Source: an uncultured Trichormus sp. (GTDB lineage Bacteria > Cyanobacteriota > Cyanobacteriia > Cyanobacteriales > Nostocaceae). From it: DNA of 64,000 nt. The stretch is from assembly GCA_936914905.1 (NCBI GenBank), contig CAKZGI010000286.1, positions 1-64,000 of the forward strand. The letters are read 5' to 3'. The notes beneath the pieces are model-generated. The model was not told the origin of the DNA. It searched no databases and was given only the letters and a program-made list of their open reading frames with translations. The stretch's first letter is position 1. Each line of letters starts with the position of its first letter. Below, piece after piece: positions 20,004 through 42,802 of this stretch. A program made the translations under genes and the position numbers.

Positions 20004-23565
<3,562 letters not shown>

Positions 23566-25552: not shown

Positions 25553-25915
25553 ATGTTTCTGCTCCATAAATACGATTCTTTTTGGATTTTCCTACTAGTA
25601 TCTCTGTCTATTCCCTATCTAGCTTTTTCGATTCCCGGAATTATTGCCCCTACACGCGAGGGACCAGAAAAGTTATCAATTTATGAGTCAGGTATTGAAC
25701 CTAAAGGAAATACCTCGATTCGATTTCAGATCCGTTACTACATGTTCGCTTCGGTATTTGCAATCTTCGACGTCGAGACAGTCTTTCTCCATCCTTGGGC
25801 TATGAGTTTCAGGGAATCAGGCCTATTCGCTTTCATTGAAGCGATCATCTTCATACTTATATTAATAGTCGGTTCGGTTCATGCATGGCGAAAAGGAGCA
25901 TCGGAACGGTCTCAA
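25553..25915 (+). CDS. ndhC: NAD(P)H dehydrogenase subunit 3; stop apparently made by editing
   Basis: Membrane subunit of the thylakoid NDH complex (complex I ND3-like), three helices. The frame starts at ATG after a GAAAGGAG ribosome-binding site. At codon 121 the genome has CAA (25913-25915) exactly where the 120-residue family ends (ALEWS-stop). C-to-U editing to UAA would end the protein there. Without it, the frame runs 24 codons further into sequence with no ND3 similarity. Codon 119 is CGG where Trp is conserved. The last ten bases overlap the ndhK start. Confidence 0.93.
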
Positions 25916-26682
25916 TTCCTGAGTATTCGAATGGAAAAAACAGCGGTAATGCTAAACCCCGCGATAATTCTCTCATCTATTCAATAGAGTCCTTATTACC
26001 CGATCAGGGCGCGTCAAACTCAATCTTTTTAGCTAGTATTAATGATTTTTCAAATTGGTCTAGACTGTCGAGTTTGTGGCCATTATTATACGGTACTAGC
26101 TGCTGTTTTATTGAGTTTGCTTCACTAATAGGTTCGCGATTCGACTTCGACCGATACGGCTTAGTACCTAGATCCAGCCCCAGACAGGCTGACCTCATCG
26201 TAACAGCCGGTACGGTAACTATGAAAATGGCTCCGTCTCTGGTCAGATTATATGAACAGATGCCTGAACCAAAATATGTAATTGCTATGGGAGCTTGCAC
26301 AATCACAGGAGGTATGTTTAGTACAGATTCCTACAGCACTGTTCGCGGAGTAGATAAATTAATTCCTGTGGATATTTATTTGCCAGGTTGTCCACCTAGA
26401 CCCGAAGCAATAATTGATGCTGTGACGAAACTTCGGAAAAAAGTGGCTCGAGAACATAACTATAGAAGAGACAAAGATCGAACATCTATTTCTAACCGAA
26501 AAAAGTACTTTGGTATGAATCATCAACTACATTTAGTACCCAGCATCCATACTGGCGAGTACAACCAACGGATAGATGATCGGGGTAAAGAGTCCTCGTT
26601 AGATGCTTTTTTGGTCTCGGTAGATTCAATAAAATTAAAGGGTCAGCTTTTGGAAGAATCAATATCGGAAACTGGTGATTAG
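25906..26682 (+). CDS. ndhK: NAD(P)H dehydrogenase subunit K (ACG start)
   Basis: PSST-like subunit of the NDH complex, ligating the terminal N2 iron-sulfur cluster. The vicinal Cys pair is in [10 protein letters not shown], with further ligands in [11 protein letters not shown] and [10 protein letters not shown]. An ATG seven codons upstream is possible, but ACG at 25906 gives (M)[10 protein letters not shown], which resembles the usual MVLTPEYSDNK start, so the edited ACG is preferred (258 residues). It overlaps the ndhC end by 10 bases, as in many plastids. Confidence 0.93.

Positions 26683-38777: not shown

Positions 38778-42802
<4,025 letters not shown>

Follow-up and report, generated by a model that had tools for sequence, protein, structure and literature searches.

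Organisation of the ndhC-ndhK junction

The window, i.e. the whole stretch of 64,000 nucleotides of DNA analysed here, carries on its forward strand, as for all features described below at this junction, the gene ndhC (25553-25915), made of 120 codons and a stop codon that would result from a candidate C-to-U edit at C25913 (CAA to UAA), and the gene ndhK (25906-26682), the putative start of which is an ACG turned into AUG once C25907 is edited, in a frame that is open from an ATG at 25885. The two genes overlap by ten bases (25906-25915), which read ACGGTCTCAA in the DNA, ATGGTCTTAA when T is placed at 25907 and 25913, and AUGGUCUUAA in a message edited at both sites. Codons 119-121 of ndhC (25907-25915) are CGG TCT CAA; read from 25906, ndhK proceeds as ACG GTC TCA ATT CCT GAG TAT. 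The first-pass annotation had pointed out that C25907 is at the same time the first base of the CGG at ndhC codon 119 and the middle base of the ACG of ndhK, which is exact in the sequence; its editing would give R119W in NdhC (CGG to UGG) and a start in ndhK (ACG to AUG). The same annotation had placed an edited ndhC stop, UAA, at codon 121 through C25913, and here again both frames read as claimed. C25913 is also dual in its own right, as the ndhC change Q121stop is accompanied in ndhK by S3L (UCA to UUA in the message, TCA to TTA in DNA letters, Ser to Leu at codon 3). With T at both positions, ndhC ends ...EWS* after 120 residues and ndhK opens MVLIPEYS... A third candidate of the cluster, C25902 (ndhC S117L, TCG to TTG), lies five bases upstream of C25907. 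Within the ndhC coding sequence, a Shine-Dalgarno-like AAGGAG (25893-25898) stands seven bases before 25906, and the upstream in-frame ATG of ndhK (25885-25887), a rival start, is made by ndhC codons Ala-Trp. Failing the edit at C25913, ndhC would be ended by a TAG at 25985-25987, giving 144 residues.

Conservation of Trp at codon 119 and the end of the NdhC family at 120 residues had also been put forward, and both are borne out: this Trp is found in the reference NdhC chains as well as in 29/29 analysed protein-matched cyanobacterial loci, and the edited ending aligns to the C-terminal Trp or Trp-Ser of the reference chains. While the four best chains align to residue 118 only with raw NdhC, the edited ending is aligned by 7wff_C, 7eu3_C and 6hum_C through the C-terminal Trp-Ser and by 9grx_C through the final Trp. 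In the tables of PMC10811885, ndhC is 363 bp in three tree ferns, i.e. 120 codons plus stop. Regarding ndhK, the alignment of the edited start with 7eu3_K opens at residue 3 of this chain, a Leu, opposite query residue 4, so that the alignment implies a start here without displaying it; the two remaining plant NdhK chains enter their alignments further in and are uninformative on the start. Each of these candidate changes would restore a residue, start or stop conserved among relatives.

Origin of the window and signs of plastid RNA editing

The assembly holding the window comprises 485 contigs for 5.87 Mb, the window being on contig C286, and the gene content is of plastid type across the 64 kb, together with 13 tRNA genes. 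The cyanobacterium 'Nostoc azollae' has its home in the water fern Azolla. The genus of the assembly is represented by one other genome (G385) among the matches listed, and the plasmid records NC_014249 and NC_014250 of 'Nostoc azollae' 0708 show 100% full-length match to 12-kb stretches from two contigs of that genome. Since 'Nostoc azollae' lives in Azolla, the plastid contig would come from the host, and the window is almost surely chloroplast DNA of this water fern. Its G+C content of 40.1%, set beside whole-plastome values of 40.5% for A. pinnata and 42.2% for A. filiculoides and A. rubra (PMC12548569), does not settle the Azolla species.

Of note, the cyanobiont assembly is rated 99.99% complete with 3.5% contamination and contains the fern plastid contig. 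Two further contigs of the assembly, C175 and C459, hold long PPR-repeat frames of 952 and 458 residues, respectively, and look like fern nuclear DNA. PPR_2 gave 16 matches on contigs of the assembly vs. 0 in 14 control genomes; a search for the DYW deaminase gave no match in the assembly and likewise none in any control.

For Marsilea mutica, 17 peptide-covered editing sites are given in Table 2 of PMC12548569, and the eight rows whose genes had been located in the window were compared. Five of these eight sites are in the unedited state at the same place in the window DNA, namely petA codon 91 (TAG, nt 271; 15059), atpE nt 308 (TCA), atpB nt 590 (TCC, numbered from the ACG at 22084), atpA codon 35 (TAA, nt 103; 63063) and the ycf3 (pafI) stop before NYYK (about 31500), the latter placed by context without nucleotide number. 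At the other three (atpB nt 503, atpI and rpoC2, the last two placed by their peptides only), the edited residue is already in the DNA, and site content therefore differs between species. The in-frame stops in petA, atpA and ycf3 are of the kind that would need U-to-C editing. From the five matching unedited sites, and from the fact that such stops, left unrepaired, would break these three genes, the plastid RNA of this plant appears, on indirect grounds, to undergo editing. Besides, the psaB start codon in the window is ACG, as reported for Salviniales (PMC12548569). In-frame stops are visible in the translated start of rpoB, and atpB is devoid of ATG at its start, where the ACG at 22084-22086 makes the codon count fit the published site atpB nt 590.

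Age of the overlap

Cyanobacterial junctions were collected in two ways, that is a protein-matched set of 30 loci, 29 of which could be analysed, and a set of at least 118 loci retrieved from genome_contigs with a degenerate DNA pattern of the junction, 108 of which could be analysed; among the matches listed for the latter (80 titles), 76 are cyanobacterial and 4 belong to other phyla. Positions are counted from the ndhC stop, -7 corresponding to ACG 25906. In the protein-matched set, Trp precedes the last NdhC residue in all 29 loci, and 18 have an open ndhK frame at -7, every one of which (18/18) has ATG at -7 plus an equally spaced AAGGAG; in other words, the ndhK ATG is nested inside the ndhC Trp codon in 18/29 loci. 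In 5 of these 18, including the cyanobiont gene, a stop between -28 and -7 closes the ndhK frame, and -7 must therefore serve as the start there. This cyanobiont gene, from the very assembly that holds the window, reads AAGGAGCTTTGGAATGGTCTTGA, with the ndhK frame closed at -22. In the pattern-matched set (at least 118 loci fetched), the frame is open at -7 in 64/108 (59 ATG, 4 GTG), AAGGAG is found in 51 of the 59 loci with ATG at -7, and the frame is closed upstream in 38 loci with a -7 start. As the -7 frame is not open in 11/29 protein-matched and 44/108 pattern-matched loci, the arrangement is common and not universal. Judged from these junctions, the overlap is ancient and the candidate edits would repair it; editing did not create the architecture. 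The upstream ATG 25885 of the window recurs in many cyanobacteria at -28 as ATG, GTG or TTG.

No second plastid junction was confirmed by NdhC protein search in genome_contigs or viral_contigs, and the degenerate junction DNA pattern had 0 occurrences in viral_contigs. Among plasmids, 147 records came up, each below 60% identity. A DNA search at E 1e-60 across the family (217 genomes) matched 44, i.e. the window itself plus 43 at 67-76% that were read as cyanobacterial; among the matches listed for NdhC across the phylum (386 genomes), plastid-level identity was reached by the window only, the next best being 60%.

Density of candidate sites in ndhC and ndhK

Scored against three plant NdhC chains, whose agreement was required, ndhC has 10 codons where a C-to-U change restores the plant-agreed residue vs. 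55 positions where T is retained; at codon 121 the reference end sign was added by hand, since the NdhC chains end there. C is thus found at 10/65 scorable positions (about 15%), and at such density the two named positions would both be C in about 2% of cases, a figure to be read in the knowledge that the C25907/C25913 pair was chosen after the fact. The pair is real, yet not statistically extraordinary for ndhC; what is special is that both members fall within the overlap. Coincidence alone as an argument for function was rejected, owing to both this value of about 2% at the local density and the post hoc choice, and heavy editing of ndhC could have produced the pair as a by-product.

The 139-residue core of ndhK has 0 candidate repairs vs. 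59 scored positions, when ndhC has 10 vs. 55 (Fisher P 0.0015), though other references would shift these figures somewhat and the scoring of ndhK is confined to its conserved core. Because its core carries no candidates, ndhK would depend on editing chiefly through the overlap.

Proposed mechanism and alternative explanations

Altogether, C25907 and C25913 are very probably two ordinary plastid C-to-U sites, each of use to both overlapping frames, in a hyper-editing water fern that is almost surely Azolla. In such a scheme, the DNA could take on two T-to-C changes without harm, since editing would rebuild the ancestral junction as AAGGAG-N7-AUGGUCUUAA: the edit at C25907 would bring back Trp119 of NdhC together with the AUG of ndhK, and the edit at C25913 the NdhC stop together with Leu3 of NdhK. 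A ribosome finishing ndhC at this UAA would be seven bases past the first base of the ndhK AUG, where it could restart, aided by AAGGAG as proposed for tobacco; alternatively, a fresh ribosome would bind AAGGAG.

NdhK synthesis could instead begin at the unedited ATG 25885 (MAKRSIGT...), in which case C25907 would be edited for Trp119 only and the resulting Thr to Met at NdhK residue 8 would be incidental. This ATG is in frame, open and needs no edit, and the equivalent codon of many cyanobacterial loci also stands in an open frame, but several lines of evidence make it unlikely as the regular start. The AAGGAG lies seven bases before 25906, when no AAGGAG-like motif is present within 30 bases before 25885, and ACG 25906 is homologous to a cyanobacterial start whose frame can be closed upstream (5/18 protein-matched loci and 38 pattern-matched ones, at least 118 having been fetched). 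Both considerations favour 25906, the former because the motif precedes this position only and the latter because frames closed between -28 and -7 leave -7 as the first possible start. Moreover, ATG 25885 is dictated by the ndhC codons Ala-Trp, and its presence is therefore no evidence of its use. A start of NdhK at 25906 is backed by the cyanobacterial junctions and by the AAGGAG, although the frame from ATG 25885 is still open in this plant, where this ATG could be a minor start.

Even with initiation at 25906, the ACG could act as a weak unedited start, or the two sites could be edited in part, readthrough NdhC (144 residues) and low NdhK being then the normal state. In chloroplasts, start-making sites are indeed edited to a lesser degree than sense ones, peaks lying near 0.5 and 0.9 (PMC12548569); against this, only the edited peptide was found at 16/17 sites and the ndhI ACG start was read as Met in the same source, and if C25907 were only half edited, one NdhC message in two would still encode Arg119, all of which renders such a situation quite improbable. 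As for the cytidines being an artefact, whether from plastid DNA copied into the fern nucleus or from an assembly error, the contig does come from a bacterial assembly also containing PPR-repeat contigs that resemble plant nuclear DNA. However, plastid-type genes extend over 64 kb, the NdhK core agrees with plant chains at almost all residues with none of its 59 scored positions in need of repair, and editing is able to repair differences such as those seen, five of which coincide with published sites; an artefact is accordingly very unlikely.

Under the preferred reading of two editing sites shared by both frames, the possible states of the message can be read out directly. Unedited, or edited at 25907 alone, it encodes the 144-residue NdhC; edited at 25913 alone, it encodes a 120-residue NdhC that keeps Arg119, and 25906 still begins an ACG; edited at both sites, it encodes the canonical NdhC/NdhK pair. 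The tobacco-type geometry, in which the two genes share ten bases and the ndhK start lies seven bases upstream of the ndhC stop, would arise only once both sites are edited. Control of translation by the edits at C25907 and C25913 is possible, and the odds that termination-then-restart coupling operates in this fern, by analogy with tobacco, seem to be about even. As to folding, the predicted mean unpaired probability of the ndhK start is 0.38 and 0.73 (40- and 80-base flanks, respectively) in the unedited sequence and falls to 0.09 and 0.14 with both edits, in predictions made on a single sequence without shuffles or covariation and where the value for AAGGAG goes from 0.20 to 0.97 by flank and edits. 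The restored ndhK start would then be less accessible than the ACG, which would suit coupling, since the rbcL-gusA model described in passages of PMC4966725 would, by analogy, have the ndhK start buried in local structure until the upstream ribosome opens it; little weight is given to these predictions because of the lack of shuffles and of the swings of the AAGGAG value.

A stronger proposal would make the two sites an AND gate common to the two genes, with correct NdhC and correctly started NdhK coming from the doubly edited message only, and NdhK synthesis reporting finished ndhC maturation; it is a speculative scheme to which we give a low probability. If it were true, editing at 25907 alone would send ndhC on to 25987, with ribosomes ending far past the ndhK AUG, and editing at 25913 alone would provide the right stopping place but confront ribosomes with ACG. 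Position 25907, six bases before 25913, is inside what we take to be the binding stretch of the PPR editing factor for 25913, and for this reason editing at 25907 could also set the order of editing at 25913. With its core free of candidates, ndhK would in that case be translationally licensed by a heavily edited neighbour.

Comparison with known systems

Start-making edits in ferns, an edited ndhC stop in Ginkgo and the ndhC-ndhK overlap itself are already known. In Azolla, Salvinia and Marsilea, ACG to AUG conversion at plastid gene starts accounts for 18 chloroplast events (PMC12548569); C25907 would likewise turn an ACG into a plastid start codon, but the effect is on one gene in those Salviniales cases, when here the same base would also repair a sense codon of the upstream gene. 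Neither ndhC nor ndhK occurs in the main text of that article, the supplements of which may well list both sites. Among other ferns, editing is reported to make five starts and two stops in the plastid transcriptome of Ophioglossum, with neither ndhC nor ndhK among the genes concerned (passages of PMC4287625), which counts against the reading proposed here, and an ACG start is listed for 20/84 genes of Cyrtomium (PMC5192491). In Ginkgo biloba, C-to-U editing creates the ndhC stop, as proposed here, but ndhK receives a created stop and not a start, the created starts being those of petL and rps8 (PMC5131507). In titles, abstract beginnings and selected passages of the open-licence literature, no mention was met of one plastid edit giving a gene its start while repairing a sense codon of the overlapping gene; the candidate sites may already be in published supplementary tables.

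In the same window, the psbD-psbC overlap also has a nested ACG (41381-41383) at the psbC start position. An edit at C41382 would give the psbC AUG but be silent in psbD (CAC to CAU, His), and therefore matters to one frame only. The cyanobacterial junction shares the nested ATG and the AAGGAG spacing with the fern one as it would be after editing, with the difference that T is already in the DNA and no editing is needed. In hyper-editing ferns, selection for translation control has been put forward as the reason why start-making edits persist (PMC12548569). A cytidine that makes the start of one gene and the needed Trp of its neighbour would be doubly constrained, and its retention could therefore not be credited to the start alone. 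The two roles also differ in what they predict for C25907, i.e. about 95% editing as a sense site or perhaps about half as a start, and not both.

A further parallel is tobacco, where the ndhC-ndhK overlap is of ten bases with GTC after the ATG (PMC4966725, citing Yukawa and Sugiura 2008, 2013) and where stop-dependent coupling of the two genes is supported by chloroplast lysate work (PMC4966725). The edited overlap here is also of ten bases and has GTC after the start. The tobacco ndhC stop, TAG, is nevertheless encoded in the DNA, whereas start and stop would both come from candidate edits in this fern, which would thereby offer a natural test of stop-dependent ndhC/ndhK coupling where the stop arises after transcription.
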